Below, one piece after another: positions 20,653 through 60,042 of a stretch of DNA of 64,000 nucleotides. Positions within the stretch are counted from its first letter, which is position 1. Each line of letters starts with the position of its first letter. Origin of the DNA: Halobaculum sp. MBLA0143 (GTDB lineage Archaea > Halobacteriota > Halobacteria > Halobacteriales > Haloferacaceae); NCBI RefSeq assembly GCF_041361465.1, contig NZ_JBGKAC010000002.1:525227-589226 (forward strand), written 5' to 3'. Made by a program: the position numbers and the translations under genes. A model generated the notes under the pieces. That model ran no database searches and had not been told where the DNA came from. It was given only the letters and a program-made list of their open reading frames with translations.

Positions 20653-20658
20653 GCGTGA

Positions 20659-24576: not shown

Positions 24577-24975
24577 TCACTCCACGGCGTCGACGCTGTC
24601 GTGCGCGAGGTACGCCGTGAGGTCGGTCGCGGAGACGAGCCCGACGACACCGCCGTCGACGACCGGGAGGTGTTGTACGTCGGCGGCAGCCATCCGGCCG
24701 GCGGCGCTCGCAATCGGGGTGTCGACTCCGACCGTCTCGACGTCCGTCGTGGCGTAGTCCGTCACGGGCGCGTCGGGGTCCGTCTCCCCGGCGACAACGT
24801 CCGACAGGAAGTCGGTCGCTGTCACGACCCCGACGAGCTCGTCGTCGTCGGTGACCAGCAGCGAGCCGATCTCTTCTTCCAACAGCGTCGCGGCGGCGTG
24901 GCTCGCGGTCGCGTCCGGCGAGACGGTCACGACCGGGGTCGTCATCAGACTCTCGATTGGCGTCGTCTCTGACAT
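24577..24975 (-). CDS. CBS-pair signalling protein
   Basis: A 132-residue soluble protein made only of two CBS domains: PIESLMTTPVVTVSPDATASHAA through GVVTATDFLSDVV, and PVTDYATTDVETVGVDTPI through GLVSATDLTAYL. CBS pairs bind adenosine nucleotides and regulate partner proteins. Free-standing ones are common in archaea. The ATG start is followed at once by the first domain. The gene lies alone between the defence operon and the phototaxis operon. Its target cannot be identified. Confidence 0.88.
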   Translation of the reverse strand: MSETTPIESLMTTPVVTVSPDATASHAAATLLEEEIGSLLVTDDDELVGVVTATDFLSDVVAGETDPDAPVTDYATTDVETVGVDTPIASAAGRMAAADVQHLPVVDGGVVGLVSATDLTAYLAHDSVDAVE

Positions 24976-30678: not shown

Positions 30679-31608
30679 GTGCCCACGGTCACGGAACTCT
30701 CGGTCGAGAACTTCAGGGGGATTGCGGAGTGTGCCGAGCCCGTTCCGCTCGGGGATCCGACAATCCTGATCGGGCGAAACAACGCCGGCAAGACCTCGCT
30801 GTTGGAGGCGCTTTATCTCCTCGCTGGGGACACGGATCCGGTGTTGCAGGAAATGAGGTACACCCGCATCGCTGGCGCACACGGCCGGCACCTTGCCCAC
30901 CAGTACACCGGGGAGTCTAGAATAAACGCGACAGTCGACGAGAGTGAGATGGAAGCAATCGTCAAGTCTGGCGGCATTGAATCGACTATCGACGGCCGCG
31001 ACCGCAGGATAACGCCAGAGACGGACGACCAGTTCGGTATTGTCGGCGAGCCCTTCTCACTCCTGTTCGACACGGAGACGCCACAGGCCAGACACACGGA
31101 CGCGCTGGCCGAGCGATTCGAAGAGATCCAGACGGCGGGGATTCACGCGGCGGTCGCGGAGTTCGTCGGCGAGAGCGTCGACGAGCGGTTCACCGAGGTG
31201 TTGTTCGACCGCGGGGAGATCCGGAAGGCGCCCGCGGACGGCACACCGTTCATGCTGGACCTAGACGATCTGGGGCGCGGTGTGGTGAAGACCATCCCGG
31301 TGTACACGGCCGTCGAACTGTTAGAACCAACGTTGACGCTGTGGGACGACCTAGAGTCGTCTCTCCACCCGACGCTGACGGAGAATCTGATCCAGTGGCT
31401 CGTCGACAGCCCGACACAGGCGGTCGTGTCGACACACAGTCTGGATGTCGTCACCGCCGCGCTCCAGGCGGATGCCGACGAGATGCAGTTCCTCAGCGTG
31501 GCGACCGACGACGGACGGCTCCGCGTCCGCGAATTCGACCGCGAACAACTCCGGCGAACGATCGAGAACGCGGGCCACGACCCGCGGTACCTCCCCGTCG
31601 ACGGATGA
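30679..31608 (+). CDS. AAA/OLD-like SMC-type ATPase, two-gene unit with 31605-32276
   Basis: A 309-residue ATPase of the AAA_15/AAA_21 type. Walker A is ILIGRNNAGKTSLLEALY (about 30-47), Walker B is TLWDDLESSLHP (about 216-227) and the H-loop is VVSTHSLDVV. It lacks a TOPRIM domain, unlike the OLD protein at 15420-17066. Its stop overlaps the ATG of the next gene (ATGA), so the two are translationally coupled. ATPase plus separate effector pairs of this kind occur in defence systems such as PARIS (AriA/AriB). Which effector type applies here is unclear. Confidence 0.8.
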   Translation: MPTVTELSVENFRGIAECAEPVPLGDPTILIGRNNAGKTSLLEALYLLAGDTDPVLQEMRYTRIAGAHGRHLAHQYTGESRINATVDESEMEAIVKSGGIESTIDGRDRRITPETDDQFGIVGEPFSLLFDTETPQARHTDALAERFEEIQTAGIHAAVAEFVGESVDERFTEVLFDRGEIRKAPADGTPFMLDLDDLGRGVVKTIPVYTAVELLEPTLTLWDDLESSLHPTLTENLIQWLVDSPTQAVVSTHSLDVVTAALQADADEMQFLSVATDDGRLRVREFDREQLRRTIENAGHDPRYLPVDG

Positions 31609-34549: not shown

Positions 34550-35767
34550 ATGGGGACTCGACACGCAGCCGACGGAAAACGAGTACCGGCGTACCTGGGG
34601 GGCGTCGCCGCCGCGGTGACACTCGTCGCAGTCGTAGAGGCAGTCAATCGGATTGCCTCGGGGACGGGTGGCATGCTGTTGACGCCGGCGTACCTCGTCA
34701 GCTTCGGGATCACACTCCCGTTCGTCGTGACGATCGCGTACGGCGCGTGGTACCTCGCCGACGAGCCGTTTCCCCCCGCGCGGAATCGCCGCATTCTGGG
34801 GTGGTGCGTCGCGGCCTCGGGGCTGTGGACGGTCGCCAACCTCCTCACGATGGCCGTCTTGGGGTTCACGAGCACTTGGGTGGTGATCGCGTGGATTCGA
34901 GGGGCGGTCGCGTTCGGCTTCGGGACGGGACTCGTCGTCGGGGTGATGGAGGCGCGGGCGGTGACGCAGGCGGTCGCGGCCGAGCAGGCACGGCTCCGGG
35001 CGGAGCACGCCGCCCGACAGCGTGACCTCGTCGACTACGTCAACAGTCTCCTCCGGCACGAGGTGCTCAACGGTGTCAACGTCGTCCAGGGCAACGCCCA
35101 ACTGTTGGCCGAGAGCGACGACGCTCCCGACCGACACGTCGATCCGATCCTCCGGCGAAGCGAGGAGCTCCAGACCGTCGTACGGGAAGTCCGGACCGTC
35201 GTAGAGTCGCTGGACGCCGACGGCACCCCAGAGGCGACGGACCTCGCAGACGCCGTCCGGACGGAGGCGACGAAGGCGGCGGATCTGGTGCCGGACGCGA
35301 CGGTGACGGTCGACGTTCCCGAGGAGACGACCGTCTACGGCGACAACACGATCGGCCCGATTGTGGGGAACCTCCTGGAGAACGCGGTGAGACACGGGGG
35401 AGAGGCGCCACACGTCCGGCTGTCCGGGAGTGTCGACGGCGACTACGCTCGGCTCCGCGTCGCGGACGACGGTCCGGGAATCGCCGACCACGACCGCGAG
35501 GGACTGTTCGAGCGCCCCGCGAGCGGCACCGGCGACCACGGCTACGGGCTCTACCTCGTCGACGTGTTGTGCGAGCAGACTGGCGGCAGCGTGGAACTGG
35601 TCGAGACCGGTCCGGACGGCACCGTGTTCGAGGTGACGCTCCCCCGTGCCGACGCCGCCGACAGCTTCGACGCCGACGGTGCCCTCAGAGGCACCGACAC
35701 CGGTGACACTGCCCTCACGGACGACTCCGTCGCGGTGGTCGACGCCGGCGACGACACGGCGAAGTGA
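34550..35767 (+). CDS. Membrane sensor histidine kinase
   Basis: A 405-residue protein. The N-terminus has four or five membrane helices (about 13-140), then a HisKA dimerisation helix with the phospho-acceptor His at about 169 (LLRHEVLNGVNVVQGNAQLL). A HATPase_c domain follows, with N-box NLLENAVRHGG (about 272-282), G1 DDGPGI and G2 GYGLYLVD. The architecture is typical of haloarchaeal kinases with a 4-5 TM sensor. The C-terminal tail is acidic and disordered. No response regulator gene is adjacent. It lies next to the RiPP cluster and transcribes toward it, so a role in regulating that cluster is possible but unsupported. Confidence 0.88.
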   Translation: MGTRHAADGKRVPAYLGGVAAAVTLVAVVEAVNRIASGTGGMLLTPAYLVSFGITLPFVVTIAYGAWYLADEPFPPARNRRILGWCVAASGLWTVANLLTMAVLGFTSTWVVIAWIRGAVAFGFGTGLVVGVMEARAVTQAVAAEQARLRAEHAARQRDLVDYVNSLLRHEVLNGVNVVQGNAQLLAESDDAPDRHVDPILRRSEELQTVVREVRTVVESLDADGTPEATDLADAVRTEATKAADLVPDATVTVDVPEETTVYGDNTIGPIVGNLLENAVRHGGEAPHVRLSGSVDGDYARLRVADDGPGIADHDREGLFERPASGTGDHGYGLYLVDVLCEQTGGSVELVETGPDGTVFEVTLPRADAADSFDADGALRGTDTGDTALTDDSVAVVDAGDDTAK

Positions 35768-35787: not shown

Positions 35788-37056
35788 TCACGGTATCGGA
35801 TGGGGCTCGTCGACGAGCCCCGCCTCGTAGCTGAGCCGCTCTGGAACGGTGTACAGCCGATCGCAGCCGAGCTGTCTGGCGTTGTACCGAGCGTTGATGT
35901 CGACCAACTCCGGCGCGACGACGGCAGCAGTCCTCACCCCGATCTCACGGAGGTCTCCAGATGTCGTCTCGTGGAAGTACGTGTCGATGCCCGCGTCGTC
36001 GAGGCAGTCGACGACACTTGCGAGCAACTCTGGTGTCGTGGCGTCCCGGTGACAGAGGTCAGAACGGAGCGACACCGTCTCGTCGGGCACGCGGTCGAGG
36101 AGAATCCGTCGGCGGTCGCCCTGGTAGTACATCAGGTGGTGATTCAATCTTTCGAGTGCTGTCGGGTCGGCCACGTCGTCCGGCTCGACGTCGTACACCT
36201 CCCGCAGGCTGTAGTAGGTGTGCATCACCTCTTCGAGCGCCTCCGAGACGGCGGTTTCGGCCAACGGGTGACAGCTGCCGCCGACACTGAGCCAGGTGCC
36301 GTCGGTTGCGAACGCGAAGTACGACGGCACAGGGAGGTCGGAAGTGACATCGACGACGGTGACGTTCAATCCGGCGTCCGACAACGCCGCGAACCGGGCG
36401 GGGGCAGCGTCGGCGACGACCCGGGTCGAGAGTCGCTGTCTTGGGAGCCCGTTGAGCAACGAGATGGCCGCGGCGTCACGTTCGATCGCCTCCAGAAGTC
36501 CACCGAGAACTGCTCGCGGGAGCGTCGTGTGGCAGGCCGCTCCGGTGCTCGTCGCCTCCTTCAGTGGGCCGTACCCGGAGGCTCCGAGGTAGACAGTGCT
36601 CGCAGGGACCCGACGTGTGGTCCCGTCTCGGATGTGAGTGACGCCGATCCACTCCCGCTCGTCGTTCGGTGTGGGCCGGCAACTGAACAGTGCACTGTCG
36701 TCGTACTGGGCGTCCGTGTGTGGCTCCCACCAGAGTGCTCCGTCGACCGTCTCGGCCGTACCGACGACGGTTTCAGTGGGAGGACGTTCGATAGAGTACC
36801 GTTCGAGTGCCTCACCAACCGCTCGGTCACGCGCCTGCTGTCGGCTGTGCTCAACTGCTGCACCGCCCGTGGTCAACTGTTTGCTCGTGTCGAACAATGC
36901 CGTCAGATCGGAGACGACTGATCGCACGACGAGGTAGCCGTCGAACAGGTGAGAGAGGTCAGTCTCGACCGTCCGGGTGACGATACCCGTGCGGTCACTG
37001 ATCGCCAGCCCGTGGGCCGCTGTTGGGTCGGACTCCGACTGTAGACGATCAATCAC
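35788..37056 (-). CDS. YcaO-family azoline-forming cyclodehydratase
   Basis: A protein of about 422 residues from the GTG at 37056, which overlaps the upstream partner's stop by 8 bp. A longer frame from 37098 would overlap by 50 bp. It shows YcaO ATP-binding features: GGAAVEHSRQQARDRAVGEALERY (split motif, about 64-87) and STGAACHTTLPRAVLGGLLEAIERD (split motif, about 175-199), plus EALEEVMHTYYS. The C-terminus ends PHPIP, the proline-rich end typical of TOMM cyclodehydratases. YcaO phosphorylates backbone amides to cyclise Cys/Ser/Thr to (thi/ox)azolines. Together with the E1-like partner it should act on the nearby precursor peptide. Confidence 0.88.
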   Translation of the reverse strand: MIDRLQSESDPTAAHGLAISDRTGIVTRTVETDLSHLFDGYLVVRSVVSDLTALFDTSKQLTTGGAAVEHSRQQARDRAVGEALERYSIERPPTETVVGTAETVDGALWWEPHTDAQYDDSALFSCRPTPNDEREWIGVTHIRDGTTRRVPASTVYLGASGYGPLKEATSTGAACHTTLPRAVLGGLLEAIERDAAAISLLNGLPRQRLSTRVVADAAPARFAALSDAGLNVTVVDVTSDLPVPSYFAFATDGTWLSVGGSCHPLAETAVSEALEEVMHTYYSLREVYDVEPDDVADPTALERLNHHLMYYQGDRRRILLDRVPDETVSLRSDLCHRDATTPELLASVVDCLDDAGIDTYFHETTSGDLREIGVRTAAVVAPELVDINARYNARQLGCDRLYTVPERLSYEAGLVDEPHPIP

Positions 37057-37867
37057 AGGTCTCACACCCCGGAACCGGAAAGACACCGTGTGTCTCACTC
37101 TCGAGCGTGACTGGATCGACCGTGACCTGCCGTGTTGCGAGCGGCCCTCCGTCCGGGCGACGACTACAGATCACGGCGATGGAGGCGAGGCCGGCGGCTG
37201 CGCCGGTGAGGCCACCGAGGGTGGATGGAGTCCCGCGACTCCGCTCGAACTCGGCTGGACTCTCTCGTGTCGATGCGCGACGGCGACGATAACAGTCGTC
37301 ACAGACGGTCTGGGTCGAAATCACTGGTCCGACACACACCTCCCCCTCGTCGTCGAACACGGGGACGAACGGGGTGGCTGGCGACGCGGCGAACTGGTCG
37401 CTGAACTCGGGGACGACACCGACCGTCACGTTGGCCGCCTCGGGCTCGTCGGTCACGTCGGCGACTCCGAACGAGCGAAGTAACGGCTCCAACGAGCAGT
37501 CACCGACGACAGCGACCACCGTGTCGACGGCTGTCTCGTACACCCTCGCCGGCTGTCGGTGGTAGCGTGCCAGCTCCCTGACGGCGTTCGTGTCGACTGC
37601 GCCCGGTGGTCTGTCGACGGCGACCGCGGCGCCGTTCTCCAACAGCTGTTCTAACAGGTCTGCCGCTCGCTCGTCGAGTTCGGCGACCGCCGTCGGCCGA
37701 CAGCCGTCTGCGAGTCGCTCGACGACGGCGTCGAGGTCGAACCCATCGGGGAGATTCCCGAGCCTGTACGAGCCACTGACAGTGTTCAAAAACAGCACGC
37801 CGTCGTGTCGCTCGACGTTGCCCCCCGGTACGACTACAGTCGAGTCTGTCTGTGTTGCTTCTTTCAA
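37049..37867 (-). CDS. TOMM E1-like precursor-binding partner of YcaO
   Basis: A 272-residue protein. Residues about 1-90 resemble a RiPP recognition element: VLFLNTVSGSYRLGNLPDGFDLD followed by a winged-helix-like segment LLEQLLENGAAVAV (split here). The rest fits the E1-like/cyclodehydratase partner family, with CVGPVISTQTVCDDCYRRR (about 170-190) and a C-terminal HGVFPVPGCETCD giving two CxxC pairs for zinc. It has no Rossmann GxGxxG, so it is a non-adenylating E1-like scaffold that presents the leader to YcaO. The start is TTG 37867; a TATA-like AATAAAT is centred 27 bp upstream, which supports this unusual codon in a leaderless transcript. Confidence 0.75.
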   Translation of the reverse strand: MKEATQTDSTVVVPGGNVERHDGVLFLNTVSGSYRLGNLPDGFDLDAVVERLADGCRPTAVAELDERAADLLEQLLENGAAVAVDRPPGAVDTNAVRELARYHRQPARVYETAVDTVVAVVGDCSLEPLLRSFGVADVTDEPEAANVTVGVVPEFSDQFAASPATPFVPVFDDEGEVCVGPVISTQTVCDDCYRRRRASTRESPAEFERSRGTPSTLGGLTGAAAGLASIAVICSRRPDGGPLATRQVTVDPVTLESETHGVFPVPGCETCD

Positions 37868-37890
37868 AGTAATGTGGTGTGGGGTGTGCG

Positions 37891-37897
37891 ATTTATT
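37891..37897 (-). promoter_or_regulatory. TATA-like element for the E1-like/YcaO operon
   Basis: The reverse strand reads AATAAAT, centred 27 bp before the TTG start at 37867. It lies between the precursor gene and the modification genes, so these can be transcribed separately from the precursor. Confidence 0.5.
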
Positions 37898-37927
37898 GCT
37901 GGCTACTACGACGACTCGGCCGTCACC

Positions 37928-38023
37928 TCAGTTGCTGAACGTCACCGAGCAGCACAGCAGGTCAGTTGTCTCTTCCTCGTCGACGCTCCGGGTCTCGTCC
38001 GCGGATTCGATTTCGAAGTCCAT
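37928..38023 (-). CDS. RiPP precursor peptide, core CCSVTFSN
   Basis: A 31-residue peptide gene. The leader, residues 1-23, starts MDFEIESADETRS, is rich in Asp/Glu and ends EETTDLL. The core, residues 24-31, is CCSVTFSN: two Cys, two Ser and one Thr in eight residues. This layout (acidic leader, Cys/Ser/Thr-dense end, stop directly after) is what YcaO and LanM enzymes act on, and genes for both flank it. The ATG is 29 bp after a strong TATA element. Haloarchaeal proteins rarely contain CC pairs, which makes chance unlikely. Modification pattern and exact leader cleavage site are inferred. Confidence 0.8.
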   Translation of the reverse strand: MDFEIESADETRSVDEEETTDLLCCSVTFSN

Positions 38024-38046
38024 CGCGTGTAGTACATAGAACATAG

Positions 38047-38055
38047 ACCTTATAT
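38047..38055 (-). promoter_or_regulatory. Strong TATA box of the precursor peptide gene
   Basis: The reverse strand reads CATATAAGG, centred about 28 bp before the ATG at 38023. This is the canonical distance for leaderless haloarchaeal transcription and is one of the best TATA boxes in the window, as expected for a highly expressed precursor. Confidence 0.65.
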
Positions 38056-38080
38056 GTCTTATGGAGCATTTCACATTATT

Positions 38081-40939
38081 CTATAGCACTAACAATCTCG
38101 GGGGCGGGTCGGACGACAGCGTGCGACACAGGGTGTACCCGATGCCAGCGCCGCCGTACGCGAACGTCGGGTCGGGCACCGCTTCGGTTCGGGCGGCAGA
38201 CCGAAACTCACCTCGACGGCGGAGTGACACCAACTGTTCGGCTCGGTGGCGGGCGAGTGCCGGATCGCCGGCCGCGAGCGCTCGGGCGACTCGGGCGGCG
38301 TTGCCAGTCCAGCGATCGTCCGTGTTCGTCCGATCGATCACCGGCCCAGCGACCGGTGTCGGTACCTCCCCGGAGTAGCCGAACCTCTCGGCTACGACTC
38401 CGACGCCGTGACTACCAGGTACCGGCGGCAGCCGCCGTCGTGTCGCTGTTCTCGGCGTCTCTAACTCGGCGGCACACTCGACTGCTGTCTCCCGAACGCC
38501 GCCGGTGTCTGTCAGATCGGCGACCGTTGCGAGCGCGTCCGCGACCCCAGCCGACTCCCCGACAGTGTCCACCTCGGTCGCGTCGACTGTGGTCGCCAAC
38601 TCGACCGCCGCCTCGCGTATCTCGCCGTCACCGATCAGGTCGGCCGTCACCGCAAGCGCACGAGCGATCCGAGCGACTGCGAGCGTGTCGTGGCAGTCGA
38701 CCCGACGAGCTGTGGCCTCGTCGTCGGCTGGATTGTCCGCCCCGTCCGTTTCCGAGACCGACAAAGCGAGTGTCTTCCGCACCGCAGTCGTCGTGTCCCG
38801 ATCGAGCACCGAGCCAGCAGCAGCGAAGAAGGCCGCCACACCCGCCCGTCCGACTGCCACCGAGTCGTCGACAGTCCCGACAGTGAGACGACCGTCCGAC
38901 GACGCAGGCGAGAGACAGCCCCACGTCCACCCCCCGTGACCGTCGGCGACTGCTGTCGTCCGCAACACTGTGGCCTGACGAGCGACAGCCGAGCGGATCT
39001 CCGCCTCGGACGCCGCTCCGTCCACATCGGCCGCGGGTTGGCCGACTGGTGCGGGTGTCTGGCCTACGCCGCCACGGATCAGCTCTATCTGCCGCCGGCT
39101 GTCGGCGGCGTCCGTCTCCTCGGTTCGCCTCCGTGCGGCCGTGACCCCGCTCACAGCCGCCGTGAGAACGGAATCGCCGTCCGGTGTCTTCACCTCCCGC
39201 TCGTCACCGGCGGCGACGAACCGCGGCGTCCGGAACCGTTCGATCGCCCGTCGCTCTGCGTCTACGATCCCCCACGGCGGGGCGGCGACTCTGTCACCCG
39301 ACAGCGAAACAGCGAGCTCGTCCACCACTCGACCGTAGGTGGCCCCGTCTGCGAGCGTGTCGAGTCGACCGAGCCTGTCGCGGAGCCGGTCTTGGTTCCC
39401 TCGGTAGACGTATCTGACCGTCGTCTCGTCGAACTCCGCTGGCGACACGAGCGTATCGTCGGTGACGACAGCGCGGTGAACGCGGCGGAATCCCTCGACG
39501 ACGGCCGACACGTACGGCTCCACCGACTGCGGCTCTCCGTCGACGACTGGCGCCGCGTGAGCCGTCGACACCGACCGCCGAGTCCGTCCGACGATCACTT
39601 CGCCCGTGCCGAGTCGATCGAACGTCGGCCGAGTGTCGTTGAGTCGCCCCGTCGTCTCCACGCTCAGTACGCCAGCCGTCTGGACGACCGTGTCGTCCGC
39701 CGACTCGTACGGGTGTCCAGTGCAGTACGGAATCAGGAGCGTCGACAACACTGATCGGTGACACAGCCCCGTTACCCCCGTCGGCGTCGGCCGACGCCGC
39801 GGCTCGACCGCCGGCGCGACGGCAGTTTCGGCGTCGATCACGACCGGGTGTTCGCCGGCTGCAACCACGTTCGTGACGGTGAGGTCACGCGATCCAAGTA
39901 GGTAGGCGATACACGCCAGCCCACCGACACGCCTGTAGTACCGCCGTACGGCCGCCCGGTCGGCACACGGCTCTGCGTCGATCCACTCCACCCAGCCGTG
40001 TGTCCCGCAGTCGAGCACGGCCGGTGTTCTGGCCGACCACCCGACTGCCCCGAACACTCGATCGACGGTGTGGTAGAACGTCGCGTCTGCGTCGACGGGA
40101 CGCGGCTTGTACGCGACCGAGAGTCGGTCGTCGAACGTCACCCGAAGTGTCGCACCGCCGTTGCCAGTCTCGGCGTCGTCTAGTGGCTCAACTGCCGTCA
40201 CGGTCTCCAGAGGCCCCGTCCCGAACGTGTCTGCGAGGCGATTGCGATCCGTACGGACCCGTCTGGCGACCCGCCGCACCGTTGCCAGCCAGTCGTCGAC
40301 GTGTGCGACGAGCAGCCTGGCGTAGACGGGGTACTCGACGCAGAGCCGGGCGAACCCGCCGTCGAACAGAAAAGAGAGGAACGCCGGCCGCACTGTCGAC
40401 GGATCGTCGTCGTCCGACACGTTCTCACGGAACGACGCCAACGGCGGCTGCCACAGCCAGCGTTCAATCCGCTCCCGGAGCCACCGCTGGAGCCGATCGA
40501 CCGCGCCGGACGCCAGTCCCGCCGTGTCGTCGTCATCTAGCTGATCGGCGGCATAGGCCGCGACGGCCGCCGCGAGTTCCGTGAACGGTCCTGTCCGTCT
40601 CTCGACTCTCGATGGCTCCGTCAGACCGGACAGCATCGCTCGCAGCCGGTCGACCCACGGCGGGAGCGTCGCGTCTGCCGACAGCCGGTCGTGAGCGACG
40701 AGTTCGACACAGGTGGACCGGTCGAGGCCGAGCGCGTCGAGCCGTCGCTCGAACTCCCGACCCGTGCGGAACTGTGCCTCCCAGTCGGCGACGACTTCGG
40801 CTCCAACCGTCCAGGTGCCGTCGACGGCCGATGTCGTTGTGTCCGTCAGTCGGTCGTGGAGTGTCCGAGCGCGCCCGGCAACCCGCCGGGCCGTCGGGTC
40901 GTCGAGCGCTGTACTGTCGCCGCTGTCGTCGCACGTCAC
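38081..40939 (-). CDS. lanM: LanM-like synthetase 1, cyclase zinc ligands missing
   Basis: A 952-residue class II lanthipeptide synthetase homologue. The dehydratase half (about 100-620) keeps SVAYKPRPVDAD (about 272), the Arg-rich YYRRVGGLA and VVIDAETAV (about 362-370), but the usual DxHxxN catalytic motif reads DLTVTN (about 351-356), with Thr for His. The C-terminal LanC-like half ends in FAYGGAGIGYTLCRTL as in real cyclases. The CHG position is WTGNAA (about 875), and no partner Cys is seen, so the zinc site for thioether formation appears lost. It probably phosphorylates and eliminates Ser/Thr, or acts as a pseudoenzyme. The precursor gene lies 57 bp downstream. Confidence 0.85.
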   Translation of the reverse strand: MTCDDSGDSTALDDPTARRVAGRARTLHDRLTDTTTSAVDGTWTVGAEVVADWEAQFRTGREFERRLDALGLDRSTCVELVAHDRLSADATLPPWVDRLRAMLSGLTEPSRVERRTGPFTELAAAVAAYAADQLDDDDTAGLASGAVDRLQRWLRERIERWLWQPPLASFRENVSDDDDPSTVRPAFLSFLFDGGFARLCVEYPVYARLLVAHVDDWLATVRRVARRVRTDRNRLADTFGTGPLETVTAVEPLDDAETGNGGATLRVTFDDRLSVAYKPRPVDADATFYHTVDRVFGAVGWSARTPAVLDCGTHGWVEWIDAEPCADRAAVRRYYRRVGGLACIAYLLGSRDLTVTNVVAAGEHPVVIDAETAVAPAVEPRRRPTPTGVTGLCHRSVLSTLLIPYCTGHPYESADDTVVQTAGVLSVETTGRLNDTRPTFDRLGTGEVIVGRTRRSVSTAHAAPVVDGEPQSVEPYVSAVVEGFRRVHRAVVTDDTLVSPAEFDETTVRYVYRGNQDRLRDRLGRLDTLADGATYGRVVDELAVSLSGDRVAAPPWGIVDAERRAIERFRTPRFVAAGDEREVKTPDGDSVLTAAVSGVTAARRRTEETDAADSRRQIELIRGGVGQTPAPVGQPAADVDGAASEAEIRSAVARQATVLRTTAVADGHGGWTWGCLSPASSDGRLTVGTVDDSVAVGRAGVAAFFAAAGSVLDRDTTTAVRKTLALSVSETDGADNPADDEATARRVDCHDTLAVARIARALAVTADLIGDGEIREAAVELATTVDATEVDTVGESAGVADALATVADLTDTGGVRETAVECAAELETPRTATRRRLPPVPGSHGVGVVAERFGYSGEVPTPVAGPVIDRTNTDDRWTGNAARVARALAAGDPALARHRAEQLVSLRRRGEFRSAARTEAVPDPTFAYGGAGIGYTLCRTLSSDPPPRLLVL

Positions 40940-40961
40940 TGTCTGTAAAATCCCTCACGCA

Positions 40962-40971
40962 CTCTTTTATC
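40962..40971. promoter_or_regulatory. Shared A/T element between LanM1 and the metalloprotease gene
   Basis: CTCTTTTATC on the plus strand (GATAAAAGAG on the minus) is centred 27 bp from the LanM1 GTG at 40939 and about 30 bp from the protease GTG at 40997. It could serve as TATA box in both directions, linking expression of the two divergent genes. Confidence 0.5.
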
Positions 40972-40996
40972 TTTGGGCACACGACGTACAGTTGTC

Positions 40997-41689
40997 GTGG
41001 CTGGAGACGAATTCGAACTCGAAGTGGCGACCGAAGCGGAGCTCGCGTCACTGACGGACACCGTCAGGCAGACGCTGATGGCGTGTATCGAGACCGCGCC
41101 ACCGGCGGAGAGACCCGTCGTCAGGCTCTTTCCGTTGTCGGCGCTCGCCAATCACGACCACGTCGTCGGGAGCGAGACACGACGCCAGCGCATTCAGACG
41201 CTGTTTCGAGAACGGCTGTCGGGTGTCGGTGGAGCGACGACCGACGACGGCGTGTGGATCTACGTCGACACGGCGGTCGACGGCCACCGCGAGGCGCTGG
41301 CGAACGCCGTCGCACACGAGTACGCTCACGCCCGCCGGCACGTCAGTACCAGTCGGCTGGCCGACCGGCTCGTCGACGAGGGGCTCGCACAGTGCTTCGA
41401 GGCTGCCATCACGGATCAGCAGCCGCCACAGACGGAGTGGGCGACTGTCGCCGACGCCGAGCGACTGCTCCAGGCAGTCGTGGACCGTATCGAGAGCCGA
41501 GATCCAGCGGTCCACCGGCGAGTTCTGTACGGCAGCTTCGACGACAACGACGTGTTCGTCCCCGGCGCAGGCTACGTTCTCGCACACGAGGTCGTCGCCA
41601 GGAGTGGACTCACGAGCGAGCACCCGTGGTCGACGGCGCTGTCAACACCGACACACCGGTTCTTCGAGGAGACGACGTTCCCGCCGTAG
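40997..41689 (+). CDS. HExxH zinc metalloprotease (DUF2268-like), candidate leader peptidase
   Basis: A 230-residue soluble protein from GTG 40997. It has an HEYAH zinc motif at residues 107-111 (ANAVAHEYAHARR) and a third ligand candidate Glu in VDEGLAQCFE (about 128), the arrangement of gluzincin-type DUF2268 predicted proteases. The C-terminal part contains FVPGAGYVLAHEVV, which resembles the DUF2268 end region. It shares a divergent promoter region with LanM1, and no other protease (such as a C39 domain) is present in the cluster, so it is the best candidate for removing the precursor leader. A role in housekeeping proteolysis cannot be excluded. A TTG at 40973 would add eight residues. 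Confidence 0.75.
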   Translation: MAGDEFELEVATEAELASLTDTVRQTLMACIETAPPAERPVVRLFPLSALANHDHVVGSETRRQRIQTLFRERLSGVGGATTDDGVWIYVDTAVDGHREALANAVAHEYAHARRHVSTSRLADRLVDEGLAQCFEAAITDQQPPQTEWATVADAERLLQAVVDRIESRDPAVHRRVLYGSFDDNDVFVPGAGYVLAHEVVARSGLTSEHPWSTALSTPTHRFFEETTFPP

Positions 41690-41724
41690 GCGACACGACG
41701 GTAGTTGCTGCGTCGACTCCAGCA

Positions 41725-43008
41725 TCACCCGCCGAACCCCAGCGTCTCGGCGTCTGCCTCTGTGACCGGCGGGAGCGTCCGGATCCCCTTGTCGACCAGA
41801 CAGCCCACCCCGAACAGGAGCAACAGTCCTGCGTAGCCGTAAAGCAGCGTGTCGACGCCAACGACGGCGGCGGCAGCGCCGCCGACGAGACTCCCGAGCG
41901 GGAACGTCGCTGCTGTCAGACTGGACACCGTCGCCGACACGCGCCCGACGAACTCGGTGTCGGCCGCAGACTGGATCACGGAGAAGAACAGGATGTTGAA
42001 CACGCCGACGGGAACGAAAGCGAGGAACAACAGCCCGGCAGTCCCGACGAGTCCGGACACTGCGACGGCGCCAGCGAGTGACAGCCCGCTGATGAGAAAC
42101 GCCGCGACGCCAACTGTCCCGTAAGGAACGTCCTCGAACACCGTCGCAGACACCGACCCCACTAGTGTCGAGGCCGCGAGGGCGGCCATCAGGGTTCCGA
42201 AGGCGCTCGCAGACCCCAGCGCTGCCCCCAGTTCCGGCAACACTGCTGTCATCGCCCCCGATCCGAAGTTGACTGCTGCCGCTCCGAGCAGGAACGGAAC
42301 GAGCCGTGAGCCCCGGATGTAGCCGACGCCTGCTCGAAGCCGGTCGCCGTACGACGAGCCGTCGTCGCCCAACGAGTCGCCGGTCTCCGCTGGATCGGTG
42401 TCGTCGTCCGTGTCCGACGTGACCGTCACTCCGGCGAACAGCACCGCCGCCAGCACGAACGTCGCGGCGTCGAAGACGAACAGACTCGCCGCTCCGACCA
42501 CCGCGAGCACGACGCCACTTCCCGCCTGGAACGCGACATCTGTCCCACTCTTGGCCAGCGACAGCAGCGAGTTCGCACGAACTAGTCGCTCGTCGTCGAC
42601 GAGACGCGGGAGCACCGCCTTCTCCGCGGGGGAGACGAACTGTTCGATCCCGGACACGAACGGGAGCACGGCCAACAACAGCCACACGGACAGCTCACCC
42701 AGCAACGCCGTTCCCGCCAGAACGGCGACCAACGCACCTTGGAGCAGTTGGGCCCACACCAGGATCTGGTGCGGGGGGCGCCGGTCGACGACTGGTCCAG
42801 CGAGAACCCGCAGGACCCGCGGCCCCCGAATCAGGAAGCCAGCGACACCGGTGTACAGTGACGACCCCGTGAGGTCGAACACGAGCCACAGAGCGGCAAT
42901 CAGGTACGCGCTGTCGCCGGCGTTCGTCGCCAGTCGTCCGGTGAACAACCGCCGGAACCCGACGTTTCGCCACAGACTCCCGTCGGTCTCGTCGTCCACG
43001 GCCGTCAC
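41725..43008 (-). CDS. MFS exporter coupled to leucyl-tRNA synthetase gene
   Basis: A 427-residue major facilitator transporter with 12 predicted helices of the MFS_3 exporter group: FRRLFTGRLATNAGDSAYLI at the N-terminus, AVLPRLVDDERLVRANSLLS and SLFVFDAATFV. It is paralogous to the exporter at 12871-14121. Its GTG overlaps the stop of leuS (GTGA), so it is translated from the same message. Its placement between a protease and an aminoacyl-tRNA synthetase inside the RiPP cluster suggests export or immunity. The substrate is inferred to be the cluster product. Confidence 0.85.
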   Translation of the reverse strand: MTAVDDETDGSLWRNVGFRRLFTGRLATNAGDSAYLIAALWLVFDLTGSSLYTGVAGFLIRGPRVLRVLAGPVVDRRPPHQILVWAQLLQGALVAVLAGTALLGELSVWLLLAVLPFVSGIEQFVSPAEKAVLPRLVDDERLVRANSLLSLAKSGTDVAFQAGSGVVLAVVGAASLFVFDAATFVLAAVLFAGVTVTSDTDDDTDPAETGDSLGDDGSSYGDRLRAGVGYIRGSRLVPFLLGAAAVNFGSGAMTAVLPELGAALGSASAFGTLMAALAASTLVGSVSATVFEDVPYGTVGVAAFLISGLSLAGAVAVSGLVGTAGLLFLAFVPVGVFNILFFSVIQSAADTEFVGRVSATVSSLTAATFPLGSLVGGAAAAVVGVDTLLYGYAGLLLLFGVGCLVDKGIRTLPPVTEADAETLGFGG

Positions 43009-45671
43009 GAGTCTGCGGGCGTGATGTCAATTGCCGGTCGGCCGGGCTCGGCGTCCGTCGCGGTCGGATCGTCCGGAGTCGACACGGCCACTGTCGCGTC
43101 GAACTCGTCTTCCAACAGCCACCGGGCGCGCTCCAACGCCTCGTGCTCCCGTTCCGACGACAGCTGTGGCTCAAGCGCATTTGCCTCCGGCGCGAGCTGT
43201 TTGGCGTAGTCGGCTGCCGCCGATCCGACTGCTCGGAGGTCTTCGTCGGCCATCACCGTTCCGACGATGTCGTCGTCCGCCTCGCGCGCGAGGCGGTAGA
43301 CGCGGTGACGCCACGTCGGCGCGACAGTGAGATTGATCCGCTCGGGGTTGTCGATCCCGACCGTGTCCAGAATGTTGTGAACGTCGTCACGGGTGGCGTC
43401 GACGAGCGCCTGCTCCGTCTCGTAACCCTCGGGAACGTCCGTGTCCGGCCAGTCCCCGGTCGCCAGCAGCGCGTCGTTGCCTAGGGTGGCCCACGCCTCC
43501 TCGCAGACGTGCGGTGCCACCGGCGACAGAACCGTCAGCACCGCGGTCAGCCCGTGCTCGAACGTCTCGTGGTCGGGCGTCGTCGCGTCCCGGTAGCGCC
43601 GGAGAAGCGACAGGAGCTGTCTGACCGCCCGGACGGCGTGGTTGAACCTGAACGCCTCGTACTTCGACGCCGCCTCCTCGACGGTCGCGTCCACGGACAG
43701 CCGGACGGACTCGTCGACTGTCCGGTCGGCGTCCGTCGTCTCGAACTCCCCGTCGGCGAACGACGACACCAGACTGTACACCCCGTCGAGGAACTGCCTG
43801 GCGCTCTCGACCCCTTCCGGGTCCCAGGCGAACTCCGTCTCCGGCTGAGCCACCTCACTGACGAACGTCCGGGCGGTGTCGGCGCCGTACTCCTCGACGA
43901 GTTCGGTCGGTGAGACGCCGTTCCCCTTGCTCTTCGACATCTTCTCGCCGTCCTCGCCCAACACCATCCCTTGGGTCGTGAGGTGGTCGAACGGCTCGCG
44001 GACGCCGTCCAACAGGTCCAGATCCGCGAGGACCTTCGTGAAGAACCGCGCGTACAGGAGGTGCATCACGGCGTGTTCCGATCCCCCAACGTAGCGGTCG
44101 ACCGGCAGCCAGTCGCTCGCCCGCTCGCGGTCGAACGGCGCCGTCTCCAGCCCCGGGGAGACGTACCGCAGGAAGTACCACGAAGAGTCCACGAACGTGT
44201 TCATCGTGTCCGTCTCCCGAACGGCTGGCCCGCCACACTCCGGACAGGCCGTCTCCTGCCAGTCTGTCGCCGCGTCCAACGGGTTGCCGGCGGTGTGGAC
44301 GAACTCCGGCAGTTCGACCGGGAGTCGATCGTCTGGCAGCGGCACTGTCCCACAGTCGTCACACTCCACCAACGGGATCGGTGTCCCCCAGTAGCGCTGT
44401 CTGGAGATCGCCCAGTCCCGGAGATCGTACTCCGTCCGTTCCCGGGCGTCGAACGCCTCCGCGAACCGCTCGCGGGCCGTCTCGCTGTCCGTCCCGTCGT
44501 ACTCTCCCGAGTCGACGAGCACACCGTCGTCGGTGAACACCTCGTCGTCGGCGTCGTCCCTCTCGCCGTTGTCGGGCACGACGACCCGTCTGATCGGAAC
44601 ATCGTGGGCCTCGGCGAAGGCGTGATCGCGTTCGTCGTGCGCCGGGACGGCGAAGATCGCACCCGTCCCGACATCGTCCAAGACGTAGTCCGCGACGTAC
44701 ACGGGCAGCTCCTCACCGGTCGCGGGGTTGATCGCCCGCGCGTCGGTCTCGACCCCGCTGGTCTGTGCGAGCCCGTCGTCGCTCGCAGCCGCACGGTCGC
44801 AGTAGTCGGCGACGGCCTCGTCCGCCTCGCCCAGCCGCTCGGCCAACGGGTGGCCCGGCGAGAGGACGACGAACGTCGCGCCATACAGCGTGTCCAGCCG
44901 CGTCGTAAACACGTCTACTGTCGTCTCCCCGTCCGGGTGTTCGGTGTCGAGACCGAGGATGTGGCCCGTCTGTCGACCGATCCAGTTGCGTTGCATCTCC
45001 CGGACGTTCGCCGGCCAGTTGTCCAGCCGATCCAACTCCGCGAGTAGTTCGTCGGCGTAGTCGGTGATGGTGAAGAACCACTGTCCGAGCTCTCGCTGTC
45101 GGATCGGCGTATCACACCGCCAACACCGCTCGTCGTCGCCCTCTACCTGTTCGTCCGCCAGGACGGTCTCACAGGAGTCACACCAGTTCAGCTCCGTCTC
45201 CTGACGCTCGACCAGCCCAGCGTCCCAGAACCGCCGGAAAAGCCACTGGTTCCACCGGTAGTACTCCGGGTTACACGTCTTCACCTCGCGGTCCCAGTCG
45301 TAGCCGAACCCCATCCGCTGGAGCTGTTCGCGCATCGAGTCGATACACGACTCGGTGAAGCTCCGTGGATCCGTGTCGCGTTCTTCGGCCGCGTTCTCCG
45401 CCGGGAGTCCGAACGCATCCCACCCCATCGGGTGGAGCACTGCTTCCCCTCGCAGCCGCTCGAACCGAGCGTACGAGTCGGTGATCGTGTAGTTCCTGAC
45501 GTGACCCATGTGGAGGTTCCCGGAGGTGTACGGGAACATCGCCAACACGTACGCCGGATCGTCGATGTCGTCCGGGACAGTGAACGCTGATGCCGTCTCC
45601 CAGGCTCGTTGCCACTCTGTCTCTACCTCTCGGTGGTCGAACGCCCGGCTGTCGTTTTTGTCGTTGGCCAC
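43005..45671 (-). CDS. leuS: Leucyl-tRNA synthetase, embedded in the RiPP cluster
   Basis: A full-length 888-residue class I synthetase. It has HMGH (about 54) as the HIGH motif, zinc-binding CDSC...CWRC (about 160-190), a CP1 editing domain with TTRLDTLYGATF and VPAHDERDHAF, a second zinc site, KMSKSKGN (about 573) and an anticodon-binding C-terminus. The domain order is bacterial-like, as found in some haloarchaeal LeuRS. It starts at GTG 45671, with TATA-like TTATAAAAA about 29 bp upstream. It is coupled to the MFS gene. Some haloarchaea carry two LeuRS, and antibiotic producers may carry a resistant copy. Whether this is the only copy in the genome cannot be known here. Confidence 0.93.
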   Translation of the reverse strand: MANDKNDSRAFDHREVETEWQRAWETASAFTVPDDIDDPAYVLAMFPYTSGNLHMGHVRNYTITDSYARFERLRGEAVLHPMGWDAFGLPAENAAEERDTDPRSFTESCIDSMREQLQRMGFGYDWDREVKTCNPEYYRWNQWLFRRFWDAGLVERQETELNWCDSCETVLADEQVEGDDERCWRCDTPIRQRELGQWFFTITDYADELLAELDRLDNWPANVREMQRNWIGRQTGHILGLDTEHPDGETTVDVFTTRLDTLYGATFVVLSPGHPLAERLGEADEAVADYCDRAAASDDGLAQTSGVETDARAINPATGEELPVYVADYVLDDVGTGAIFAVPAHDERDHAFAEAHDVPIRRVVVPDNGERDDADDEVFTDDGVLVDSGEYDGTDSETARERFAEAFDARERTEYDLRDWAISRQRYWGTPIPLVECDDCGTVPLPDDRLPVELPEFVHTAGNPLDAATDWQETACPECGGPAVRETDTMNTFVDSSWYFLRYVSPGLETAPFDRERASDWLPVDRYVGGSEHAVMHLLYARFFTKVLADLDLLDGVREPFDHLTTQGMVLGEDGEKMSKSKGNGVSPTELVEEYGADTARTFVSEVAQPETEFAWDPEGVESARQFLDGVYSLVSSFADGEFETTDADRTVDESVRLSVDATVEEAASKYEAFRFNHAVRAVRQLLSLLRRYRDATTPDHETFEHGLTAVLTVLSPVAPHVCEEAWATLGNDALLATGDWPDTDVPEGYETEQALVDATRDDVHNILDTVGIDNPERINLTVAPTWRHRVYRLAREADDDIVGTVMADEDLRAVGSAAADYAKQLAPEANALEPQLSSEREHEALERARWLLEDEFDATVAVSTPDDPTATDAEPGRPAIDITPADS

Positions 45672-45694
45672 AGTGACACATCTACTCTACGTTC

Positions 45695-45705
45695 ATTTTT
45701 ATAAT
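45695..45705 (-). promoter_or_regulatory. TATA-like element of the leuS-MFS operon
   Basis: The reverse strand reads ATTATAAAAA, centred about 29 bp before the leuS GTG at 45671, fitting a leaderless transcript. Confidence 0.6.
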
Positions 45706-45854
45706 CTTCTGTTCCACCGGTGGGAGTCCCCGACGGTGCTGTGTCACGACGAGGCGAGACCACCCGCACCCGGCAGGGTCGGTTTCGTCTCAGTGTTGGT
45801 GATTGTTCAGAGCAGAGGAAAAAAGTTGATACGAGATGTCAAATAGTTACAGAT

Positions 45855-45923
45855 ATGGCAGCGACACGAGCCTCTCGGCACGGCGGACTGGTGACGGACA
45901 ACAGCAGTGAGGCGTCGCAGTGA
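45855..45923 (+). CDS. 22-residue peptide overlapping the start of LanM2
   Basis: ATG 45855 opens a 22-codon frame (MAATRASRHGGLVTDN, then SSEASQ) whose TGA overlaps the GTG of LanM2 as GTGA. An A/T-rich AAAAAAGTTGAT lies about 29 bp upstream. The peptide has a Gly-Gly pair followed by a Thr/Ser-rich end but no Cys, so it cannot form thioethers. It could be a second substrate for Ser/Thr dehydration or a leader peptide that couples ribosomes to LanM2. Either reading is speculative. The overlap makes translation likely. Confidence 0.4.
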   Translation: MAATRASRHGGLVTDNSSEASQ

Positions 45924-48900
45924 GCGGATTCACCCCCACCCAACGACGACGGCTCGCGGCCAAGGCGGCGACCATTCCCGAGCGTCTCGAGGCAGGACTG
46001 CTCGCCGACGAGCCCGCGTCCGACGCGCCGGCTGTCGACGACTGGGCGGCCATGTACGGCGGTGCCTTCGACGAGCGGCTCCAGTTGCTGGAGACGACAC
46101 GGGCGGAGTGTCGCCGTGCCGCCGCAGTCGATCAGGCCGCGGAGGTGCCTGAGTGGATCACTCGGTTGGAGACGGTGGTGACCGGTGTCACGGCCCGTGA
46201 CCTCCGTGTCGACGGTGCTGACACCGTCGACACGTACACCGTCGACGACAACGACGACCGACCACACGTCGACGGCCCGCCGCGCCCGTTCGGATCGCTG
46301 ACGGCCGCGATTGCGGCAGAGGCGAGAGACGGCCTCCCGACGCTGTCGCTGTCGGAGTCGGCTGTCGACTCGTTCGCGGCTGCGTTGCAGTCGCGGGTCG
46401 AACGAAACTCTCTGCAACTCCTGTACGAGCAGTTTGACCGAGCCAGACGGCGTCACGCGCCGGACGCCCGGGCGTCGGTCGGCGGCGACAGTGAGCCGGA
46501 GACGGCCGTGTACGAGAAGTTCCTCGCGTATCTCCTCGACGACGGACTCGTCGAGTTGTGTCTGACGTACCCCGTGTTCGGACGCCTGCTGTCGACGCAG
46601 GTGCGACAGTGGCGCAGTGCAGTTGTGACGTTCGCCGAGCGGCTGAACGACGACCGTGCGGCGTTGGCCGAGCAGTTCGCGGACCGTTCCGCTCTCGGGC
46701 GCGTCACTGCCGTTCGACCTCTCACCCGCGACAGACACGGTGACGGCCGTGTCACCCGTCGGGTCGAGTTCAAGTGTGGCGTCACCGTCGTCTACAAGCC
46801 GCGCACGGTTCGACCAGAGGCTGCACTTGCAGCACTCACCACGGATCTGGCGGCCGACGGTGACCTGCCGCGACTCCGACAGCCGCAGTGCCTCGTCCGC
46901 GACGGCTACGGGTGGACATCTCTGCTCGATACCGATCCGCCGACGGGTGAGACGGCGGCACGGCGCTACTACCGTCAGTTCGGCGCTCGGTGTTGCCTCG
47001 CTCGACTCACCGAGACGACGGACTGTCACACCGACAACGTCGTCGCCACCGACGACGGTCCAGCACTCGTCGACGCCGAGACGATCTGTCACCCGTACCT
47101 CGACCCGAACCGACGGCCGTACGACTGGGGGTTCGGACGGGCCGTCGACGAGACGCCGCTGTCGACGGCGATGCTGCCGTACCAGATTCGGACAGAGGAG
47201 GGATCGCTGAACCGGAACCCCGTCGGACCATCTGCGGCACCGACGCCAGACACCGAGGAGTCGAGGACGGAGACGGTCGTCCGAGCGGTCGCCACGGACG
47301 CGATGTGTCTGGAGACGGTTACCCGCGACCTCGACGGCGTCGCCGCCGATGCGCCCGTGGTCGACGGTGAGCCAGCACTCCCGTCCGAGTACGTCGACGC
47401 CGTCGTCGCGGGGTTCGAACGCACTCACCGTGCGGTGCGTGCCCAGTGTCTCTCCGGCGACACTCCGCTGACCGATCACCTCGGCGGGCTGCCCGTCCGG
47501 TTCGTTTACCGACCGACTGGATCGTACCGCCGGATACTCGACCGGCTGCGTGAGCCAGCCACGCTGGCCGACGGTGCCCGGTTCGGAGTCGTCCTCGACC
47601 GGCTCACCGTGCCTGCGTTCGACGGCACGGCCGACCGACACCCGCTCTCAGTGCTCAACGCCGAGCGGACGGCGCTGAAGCGGCTCGACCACCCACGATT
47701 CACGAGTCGGTCGGACGCGACGGTGGTCGAACACGACGGTGTCCCGCTGTGTGATCTCGCCGACGTGTCGGGACTGGACAGAGCGCGTGCACGGGTCACC
47801 CGTGGCGACGACCGTCGACTCGCCGAGGAGGTTGCCGTCGTCCGTGCGGCGCTGGGCGAGGACGGCAGACAGCCGCTCGGCGAGCACACGACCGCTCACG
47901 ACCCACACGATCAGACGAACGAGACGATACCTCCGTCTTCCGGCGATGCCGACTGGACGACACCGTCGACTGCCGCGCAGGCGTCGTTCGAGCGCGCCGT
48001 CGCCGCCGGAGAGACACCGGCCGGCCGGTCGTACGTGTGGAGTCGGTTCGACCCGACAGCGACACGACTACCGACCGTCGCGGGCGTCGGGTTGGGTCTC
48101 GAACGCGGACGAACTGGCGTCGCCATCCTCGGTGCTGCACTGTCCGCTCTCGACGGGACCGGAGCGTACTACAGCCGGACGCGGTCGCTCCTTGACCCAG
48201 TCCTGACAGCGACGGCGGACGCTCTCGACGACCCGGCGACCATCGGGTACGGACTGGTCGTCGCCGGCTCTCTCCTGAACGACGACCGGATACTGTCGAC
48301 CGGGACAGTGTTTGCTCGGGCGGCCGATCCCGGGCCCTCCTCTGTGATGGACGGTGGCCTTGCCGGAACTGTTGCTGCCGCGACCGGTGTCGCCCGGGCG
48401 ACGGACGACGAGCGTGTTCGGTCGCAGGTGGTCGCTTTCGGCGACCGACTGCTTGATCGGAGTGAGGAGTGGCAGTGTGCTCCCCCGACGTACGATCGAG
48501 GCTCTGGCGGCGTCGTGTACGCCCTCGCACACGCATGGGCCGAGACTGGCTGTGAGCGGTTCCGCGAGGCGGCAGCCGAGACCGTCGCGTCGTGGGAACA
48601 GCCCCCGGACGCACCAACCCAGGTCGGACTTGACGCCAGGCTCCCCGGTGTCACGTTCGATTCCCCCACCAGCGAACGCCGTGGAGACGAGTACCGGGGC
48701 GGGACGGCCGGCCGGATCACTCTCCAGATCGCCGCAGGGCGTGAAACTGCCGCTGCCGAGACCGCGGATCGACTCCTCACCCGAGTCGTCCGCGACGGTC
48801 GGTACACGCTCCCGACGGACGCCAGCGGAGTCGTCGATCCTACCCTCCGAGACGGCTACGCCGGTGTCGGGTACGCTCTCGCCCGGTGTGTCTCCCCGAC

Positions 48901-48928
48901 GCTACCGTGTCTGGTGCTGCGTGGCTAA
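45920..48928 (+). CDS. lanM: LanM-like synthetase 2, intact dehydratase motif, cyclase zinc ligands missing
   Basis: A 1002-residue class II lanthipeptide synthetase homologue. The dehydratase half keeps TVVYKPRTVRPE (about 289-300), TTDCHTDNVVATDDG (DxHxxN, about 368-373) and ALVDAETIC (about 381-389), so phosphorylation and elimination of Ser/Thr phosphates are plausible. The C-terminal LanC-like half keeps the helix pattern and ends RDGYAGVGYALARCV, but the CHG motif position is YRGGTAGR (about 924) and no WCxG motif is found, so zinc-dependent cyclisation is doubtful. The GTG start overlaps a 22-residue frame. It faces away from leuS and is the last recognisable gene of the cluster. Sequence identity with LanM1 is low. 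Confidence 0.85.
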   Translation: MSGFTPTQRRRLAAKAATIPERLEAGLLADEPASDAPAVDDWAAMYGGAFDERLQLLETTRAECRRAAAVDQAAEVPEWITRLETVVTGVTARDLRVDGADTVDTYTVDDNDDRPHVDGPPRPFGSLTAAIAAEARDGLPTLSLSESAVDSFAAALQSRVERNSLQLLYEQFDRARRRHAPDARASVGGDSEPETAVYEKFLAYLLDDGLVELCLTYPVFGRLLSTQVRQWRSAVVTFAERLNDDRAALAEQFADRSALGRVTAVRPLTRDRHGDGRVTRRVEFKCGVTVVYKPRTVRPEAALAALTTDLAADGDLPRLRQPQCLVRDGYGWTSLLDTDPPTGETAARRYYRQFGARCCLARLTETTDCHTDNVVATDDGPALVDAETICHPYLDPNRRPYDWGFGRAVDETPLSTAMLPYQIRTEEGSLNRNPVGPSAAPTPDTEESRTETVVRAVATDAMCLETVTRDLDGVAADAPVVDGEPALPSEYVDAVVAGFERTHRAVRAQCLSGDTPLTDHLGGLPVRFVYRPTGSYRRILDRLREPATLADGARFGVVLDRLTVPAFDGTADRHPLSVLNAERTALKRLDHPRFTSRSDATVVEHDGVPLCDLADVSGLDRARARVTRGDDRRLAEEVAVVRAALGEDGRQPLGEHTTAHDPHDQTNETIPPSSGDADWTTPSTAAQASFERAVAAGETPAGRSYVWSRFDPTATRLPTVAGVGLGLERGRTGVAILGAALSALDGTGAYYSRTRSLLDPVLTATADALDDPATIGYGLVVAGSLLNDDRILSTGTVFARAADPGPSSVMDGGLAGTVAAATGVARATDDERVRSQVVAFGDRLLDRSEEWQCAPPTYDRGSGGVVYALAHAWAETGCERFREAAAETVASWEQPPDAPTQVGLDARLPGVTFDSPTSERRGDEYRGGTAGRITLQIAAGRETAAAETADRLLTRVVRDGRYTLPTDASGVVDPTLRDGYAGVGYALARCVSPTLPCLVLRG

Positions 48929-60006: not shown

Positions 60007-60032
60007 GACCGCAGTGTGAGCCGTGCCCGAAC

Positions 60033-60042
60033 AAAAGTTTAT
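60033..60042 (-). promoter_or_regulatory. TATA-like element of the mcrBC operon
   Basis: The reverse strand reads ATAAACTTTTG around these positions, centred about 27-30 bp before the McrB GTG at 60006. It supports that start. Confidence 0.5.

Follow-up and report, generated by a model that had tools for sequence, protein, structure and literature searches.

A haloarchaeal gene block combining a YcaO/E1-like pair, two zinc-less LanM relatives and a second leucyl-tRNA synthetase

Introduction

In the bacterial dehydrazoles, as described in 2023 (PMC10676384), a DUF4135 protein that lacks zinc works together with a YcaO protein to give dehydroalanine (Dha) and azoles with no lanthionine, and the DUF4135 enzyme is reported to act only on a serine that precedes an azole. 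Goadsporin and the thiopeptides, also described there, similarly carry azol(in)es and dehydroamino acids on one peptide, but they use tRNA-dependent split LanB dehydratases. The main text of that paper has no words beginning 'archaea' or 'halo', and in the open-licence literature we found no archaeal YcaO/LanM cluster. We describe here a block of genes of ~13 kb (positions 35788-48928) in a 64,000-nucleotide stretch of the genome of Halobaculum sp. MBLA0143 (the window), which encodes a YcaO and E1-like pair, a short precursor peptide, two relatives of LanM and a leucyl-tRNA synthetase (LeuRS). In archaea it would be the first to join azoline and LanM dehydration chemistry on a ribosomally synthesized and post-translationally modified peptide (RiPP).

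The LeuRS has its own precedents. AgnB2 is a second LeuRS copy carried by the producer of a LeuRS inhibitor, agrocin 84, to which it confers self-immunity (PMC5059758). For haloarchaea, Andam et al. (2012; PMC3436685) describe bacterial-type LeuRS as spread by transfer and lacking a conserved neighbourhood, and suggest that two haloarchaeal LeuRS forms are possibly kept against natural antibiotics, with no agent known. The same open-licence literature yielded no paper linking LeuRS, self-resistance and a RiPP.

A reading of the window made from its sequence alone had proposed a scheme reminiscent of that of goadsporin, with LanM in place of a LanB-type dehydratase beside YcaO. Such a scheme is not new, as the bacterial dehydrazoles already use it. 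YcaO/LanM hybrids are known from bacteria, and the present block differs from them in leader, core logic and partners.

Results

The window (G000:C2:525227-589226) is the end of the 589-kb second contig of a 3.58-Mb genome that is 97.2% complete. Two YcaO genes are present in this genome, and of its seven DUF4135 genes two lie inside the window. On the minus strand of the block the order of transcription is leuS (45671-43005), a major facilitator superfamily (MFS) exporter (43008-41725), LanM-A (40939-38081), the precursor (38023-37928), the E1-like protein (37867-37049) and YcaO (37098-35788). The plus strand carries LanM-B (45920-48928), which is transcribed away from leuS, and the gene of a protein with the motif HEYAH (40973-41689). 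Every part named by the sequence-only reading, i.e., a YcaO ending in PHPIP, an E1-like partner with CxxC pairs, a precursor with the core CCSVTFSN, two LanMs, an HExxH protease, an MFS protein and leuS, is present and in its place. A scan for sigma-70 promoters, using a model ill-suited to archaea, gave no match.

The whole block recurs in a second species, with gene order and relative strands unchanged (L119/L126). The L119 locus is contig JAHENP010000194.1 of a metagenome bin named Haloferacaceae archaeon (genome G461), which belongs to the same genus and is 74% complete. Amino acid identities between the two species are 71.8% for YcaO, 66.5% for the E1-like protein, 66.7% for LanM-A, 71.8% for the HEYAH protein, 79.0% for the MFS protein, 82.5% for the LeuRS, 67.1% for LanM-B and 93.3% (28/30) for the precursor. 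The ratio of nonsynonymous to synonymous changes (dN/dS) lies between 0.069 and 0.286 over the block, with values of 0.069 for the precursor, 0.156 for leuS and 0.286 for LanM-B. These values indicate that all genes of the block are under purifying selection, and that the precursor is the most constrained. The conserved segment has the same boundaries as those drawn in the sequence-only reading. Outside it, only a piece of a histidine kinase gene (35311-35643) aligns with L119 at the DNA level. The kinase gene (34550-35767, plus strand) is convergent with YcaO, and its counterpart frame in L119 looks short.

The distribution of the block is narrow. Among 7,997 candidates scored from a database of 5.8 billion proteins the E1-like protein had one relative besides itself, and a search through genome contigs yielded a single instance, in L119. 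It occurs in 2/170 genomes of the family (E value 1e-8), both of one genus, and two other genomes of that genus lack it. In an order-level sample of 392 genomes, 10 gave a match to E1 at E 0.001, including the genome studied here, and the others were weak. YcaO matches were present in at least 302 of these genomes and DUF4135 matches in at least 38, the latter scored on at most four candidates per genome, which missed both LanMs of the window. Among the matches listed for this sample no other YcaO adjoins a LanM. Eleven other E1/YcaO loci (L099-L109), chosen among the matches listed, had no LanM match in the stretches examined. The expectation of the sequence-only reading that YcaO and LanM genes would be co-conserved is thus borne out in a second species, within a single genus.

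The precursor gene (37928-38023, minus strand) encodes 31 residues, MDFEIESADETRSVDEEETTDLLCCSVTFSN, of which 28 of 30 are the same in the L119 copy, MEFEIQSADETRSVDEEETTDLLCCSVTFS. An acidic leader of ~23 residues is followed by the core, in which Cys24 and Cys25 are adjacent and the first is preceded by leucine (LLCCSVTFS). The precursor is 30-31 amino acids long in all copies, the terminal asparagine of the window peptide being absent from that of L119. Over 90 bases the two genes differ by 12 third-position changes and only three at first or second positions, and the dN/dS value given above (a Nei-Gojobori-type count), the lowest in the block, includes the leader. A degenerate DNA pattern of the core had no match among viral contigs.

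YcaO (35788-37098, minus strand) is a predicted azoline-forming cyclodehydratase, matching PF02624 at 158.8 bits. Its C terminus, DEPHPIP, is a PxPxP-like tail; the L119 copy ends in PHPMP. The E1-like protein (37049-37867, minus strand) is the predicted leader-peptide binder for YcaO. It matches TIGR03882 at 41.4 bits, above the cut-off of 36.9, and its two CxxC pairs, CDDC and CETC (C189, C192, C268 and C271), are all kept in L119. An AlphaFold model of the protein had a predicted local distance difference test score (pLDDT) of 38, unusable for assigning a fold. The coordinates of both genes use the first in-frame start, and the true starts may be further inside. For YcaO the likely internal start is a GTG codon (37056) that shares bases with the stop of the E1-like gene (GTGATTGA), an overlap found in both species. 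The hallmarks of a linear azol(in)e peptide, or thiazole/oxazole-modified microcin (TOMM), i.e., a YcaO with a proline-rich tail, an E1-like partner and a core of Cys, Ser and Thr, are all found here, with YcaO at 192.9 bits against TIGR03604, below its curated cut-off of 219.25. A flavin dehydrogenase that oxidizes azolines, which is optional in TOMMs, was not seen among the cluster proteins or the 20 flanking open reading frames, to which the search was confined. The rings would therefore be expected to remain azolines.

We also considered a scheme like that of microcin C (PMC7136475), with the E1-like enzyme adenylating a C-terminal asparagine to hit a synthetase. This was rejected on two grounds: in L119 the peptide has a terminal serine and lacks the asparagine, and the family to which the E1-like protein has its match, TIGR03882, is one of TOMMs.

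Neither LanM retains the zinc ligands of the cyclase. LanM-A (38081-40939, minus strand) matches DUF4135 at 231 bits, and LanM-B (45920-48928, plus strand), a predicted Ser/Thr dehydratase, does so at 265 bits and matches TIGR03897 at 346 bits, over the cut-off. LanM-B also has a weak match to NF038151 (E 2.4e-4), alongside the full LanM match. In alignment the three zinc ligands C875, C911 and H/C912 are absent from both proteins in both species. All three are present in 106/127 other LanMs of 900 amino acids or more, a control set in which some frames from 4-kb loci were possibly cut at an edge. Since both enzymes lack all the ligands, enzyme-made lanthionine rings are not expected.

The two proteins differ in their remaining active site, for which we used the CylM-numbered set of kinase and lyase residues taken from PMC4550811. 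LanM-B keeps 9/9 of these. LanM-A retains the kinase core, K274, D347, N352 and D364, and also R506, but its lyase residues D252, H254 and T512 are lost in both species. H349 is replaced too, a position that carries another residue in 35/141 other LanMs. Loss of two or more lyase residues was found in 3/141 other LanMs (P0005, P0063 and P0090). Evidently the two LanM-like enzymes of the sequence-only reading are not two working lanthipeptide synthetases. The LanM fold is nevertheless retained in an AlphaFold model of LanM-A (pLDDT 83.4), and its C terminus aligns with the LanC domains of CuvL and LanCL2. In a tree that contained no bacterial dehydrazole enzyme, LanM-A and LanM-B group as sisters (support 0.953), though both have long branches, and they nest with haloarchaeal LanMs.

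Other unusual LanMs were encountered. P0005, a metagenome protein of 1056 amino acids, is a zinc-less LanM 32% identical to LanM-A. Two further LanMs of the Halobaculum genome (L003 and L008, on G000:C1), when aligned, likewise have none of the three zinc ligands. A genome of another family (G008), with 11 DUF4135 matches, has a pair of adjacent LanM genes (L110, G008:C7, 9076-15576).

The cluster LeuRS (43005-45671, minus strand) is of the bacterial type, matching TIGR00396 at 845 bits, and is the second LeuRS of its genome. An archaeal-type enzyme is encoded on the main contig (G000:C1:1479955-1483023; TIGR00395, 904 bits). In the L119 genome, too, an archaeal-type LeuRS (870 bits) is encoded apart from the bacterial-type copy of the cluster, so that both cluster genomes have the two types. 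No bacterial-type LeuRS was found at E 1e-200 in the two other genomes of the genus, both of which also lack the cluster E1 (E 1e-8); one of these, G296, has an archaeal-type LeuRS. The sequence-only reading had merely listed leuS, and missed that the genome has another LeuRS, from which this one differs in evolutionary type.

The motifs HMGH and KMSKS and the editing motif are intact, so that by sequence the second copy appears competent. Its identity to seven other haloarchaeal enzymes of the bacterial type is 53-65%. Within the block the gene is flanked by LanM-B and by the exporter (41725-43008, minus strand; PF05977 and PF07690), and in both species the start of the exporter gene overlaps the stop of leuS (GTGA). 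The neighbourhoods of other bacterial-type LeuRSs (L136-L139) had no YcaO, E1 or LanM match.

Two further lines concerning the LeuRS were dropped. AgnB2 has threonine where other LeuRSs have Pro45 (PMC5059758). The cluster LeuRS has this threonine as well, but so do three of the seven other haloarchaeal bacterial-type enzymes, and it is therefore no evidence of resistance. At a locus in G008 (L099, G008:C4, 5122-10589) a gene for an E1-like protein, an archaeal-type leuS and the 3′ part of a YcaO gene are adjacent. This resembles a second case of a spare leuS but is not counted as one, since the synthetase is of archaeal type and no other LeuRS was seen in the genome, which is 81% complete.

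Elsewhere in the window there are genes of other kinds. A probable defence system of the Hma type lies at 18013-24713 (minus strand), with an HmaB-like DNA methylase (144 bits) and an HmaC/DUF499-like ATPase (58 bits). OLD/GajA/AriA-like ATPases are encoded at 15420-17081 (minus strand), this one with a TOPRIM domain, and at 30679-31608 (plus strand). At 56139-60165 (minus strand) a PF10117 protein and one of the AAA_5 family, with overlapping reading frames, make up a McrBC-type restriction pair.

Discussion

We propose, with confidence evenly balanced between belief and doubt, that the block encodes a near-invariant peptide, a YcaO/E1-like pair that forms azolines, a pair of LanMs that dehydrate without closing rings, and a protective second LeuRS. 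The E1-like protein would bind the acidic leader, and YcaO would make two thiazolines (Thn) at Cys24-Cys25. LanM-B would phosphorylate and eliminate Ser26, Thr28 and Ser30 to give Dha, dehydrobutyrine (Dhb) and Dha, while LanM-A, deficient as a lyase, would serve as a kinase or for docking, and neither LanM would close rings. The HEYAH protein (40973-41689, plus strand), a predicted zinc protease of the DUF2268 family (PF10026, E 7.9e-9), is a candidate leader peptidase that would cut near Leu-Leu, and the MFS protein would export the product. The idea of azoline and dehydroamino-acid chemistry on one peptide, advanced from sequence alone, is partly supported, in that the gene neighbourhood is real and co-conserved; what has to be revised is the part of the LanMs, both zinc-less and one deficient in its lyase.

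The cluster leuS is likely to be a target-copy self-immunity gene. Self-immunity is usually marked by just such a conserved second target gene within a peptide cluster, here one that overlaps the exporter gene, and this reading therefore predicts a RiPP that inhibits LeuRS. The bacterial-type enzyme would go on charging tRNA-Leu while the archaeal-type LeuRS is inhibited. In its most specific form the proposal gives the product H-Leu-Thn-Thn-Dha-Val-Dhb-Phe-Dha, with a Leu-azoline head that mimics leucyl-adenylate. This would be the first RiPP to jam LeuRS, with survival through the LeuRS of the other domain; we regard this specific form as rather unlikely.

A number of observations weigh against our proposal. 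Conservation is confined to one genus, and the second genome is an incomplete metagenome bin. The core has no serine directly before a cysteine, the site that the dehydrazole enzyme needs; the serine follows the second cysteine, so that either the rule of serine before azole differs here or YcaO also cyclizes Thr/Ser. Zinc-less LanMs are found elsewhere (14/127), and zinc loss alone therefore does not imply a YcaO partner. Bacterial-type LeuRS is a common type, present in 92/170 genomes of the family. Among nine genomes with the archaeal type, three (the window genome, G140 and G264) also have a second, bacterial-type enzyme, and second copies thus occur without such clusters. Lastly, the cluster LeuRS has no excess of special substitutions, with 13 shared between the two species (D491N included) against 0-24 private ones in the seven controls, an absence that, as far as residues can indicate, speaks neither for nor against resistance.

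The last of these points, together with the abundance of bacterial-type LeuRS and its transfer without a conserved neighbourhood (Andam et al., 2012), would fit an alternative that we consider possible, though doubtful: the cluster yields the hybrid peptide, which however acts on something other than LeuRS, and leuS is a co-transferred spare or gives resistance to the inhibitor of a third party. On the other side, leuS is placed within the block and overlaps the exporter start, it is 82.5% identical in the two species, and among four genomes of the genus the bacterial-type gene is found only in the two that carry the cluster.

It is improbable, in our judgement, that the LanMs divide their labour such that LanM-A only phosphorylates, leaving a product that is partly a phosphopeptide or a phosphate that LanM-B eliminates. 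The residues kept and lost in LanM-A would suit this role, as the CylM T512A mutant phosphorylates without eliminating (PMC4550811), but H349 is lost as well, albeit at a variable position, and a pure docking pseudoenzyme would explain the same residues. Very unlikely is an ordinary class II lanthipeptide with thioethers between Cys24/25 and the dehydrated residues and an accessory YcaO pair: cysteines and Ser/Thr are present in the core, LanM-B is above the TIGR03897 cut-off and ring closure could occur uncatalysed, but the zinc ligands are absent from both LanMs in both species and an adjacent cysteine pair is the usual substrate of YcaO. Some RiPP pathways use aminoacyl-tRNA, and the charging enzyme of this block could in principle support a tRNA-dependent addition to the peptide by supplying Leu-tRNA, but this is scarcely credible, as no aminoacyl-tRNA-using peptide ligase or LanB family was found among the cluster proteins scanned and the housekeeping LeuRS already supplies Leu-tRNA.

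If the specific, adenylate-mimic form of the proposal is correct, peptides of this sort would help to explain the retention of both LeuRS types by some haloarchaea. As the second LeuRS sits in a cluster like those of peptide antibiotics, a putative target, sensitive enzyme and resistant enzyme can each be identified and put to assay, and the question raised by Andam et al. (2012) on the two haloarchaeal forms becomes testable.

Among described systems the dehydrazoles (carnazolamide, cca cluster), as presented in PMC10676384, are closest. In common with them the block encodes a DUF4135 protein without zinc ligands in its cyclase domain beside YcaO, together with one short Cys/Ser/Thr core, and dehydroamino acids and azol(in)es would be expected together with no lanthionine, here predicted from the genes. 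Dehydrazole clusters are bacterial and have a long nitrile-hydratase-like leader, a dehydrogenase, a radical SAM epimerase, a methyltransferase and an S8 protease. Their DUF4135 enzyme (LanMbC) is fused to a cyclase domain of the class III (LanKC) type; in this respect LanM-B shows the weak NF038151 match beside its full LanM match, and the C terminus of LanM-A aligns with LanC domains. The haloarchaeal block has instead a ~23-residue acidic leader, an E1-like partner, two LanMs (one lyase-deficient) and a DUF2268 protease, with no dehydrogenase seen, the core order CCS, which places no serine directly before an azole-forming residue, and a LeuRS. Haloarchaeal LanM relatives have here shed the cyclase zinc site, and one also its lyase, beside a YcaO, which we read as parallel to the dehydrazoles. 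Goadsporin and the thiopeptides are set apart by their LanB-type enzymes, none of which was found among the proteins of this cluster.

Class II lanthipeptides of haloarchaea, archalan among them (PMC10105419, PMC12144867), share LanM kinship and a short acidic precursor, but their LanMs are described as having LanC domains, and the zinc-dependent form of that domain is found in neither LanM-A nor LanM-B, which stand beside a YcaO pair. The haloazolisin YcaO (PMC9953058) is also haloarchaeal, but is described as fused, universal in haloarchaea and not clustered with RiPP genes, whereas the cluster YcaO is short and separate; the other YcaO of this genome, a 593-amino-acid frame, is about the size of the haloazolisin enzyme. 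Agrocin 84 is an adenine-nucleotide antibiotic and not a RiPP, and AgnB2 has KQSKS where the cluster LeuRS has KMSKS (PMC5059758). The likeness to AgnB2 is that of a second LeuRS in a producer, with LeuRS inhibition predicted here, and in both cluster genomes the second target gene lies inside the cluster with a housekeeping copy elsewhere.

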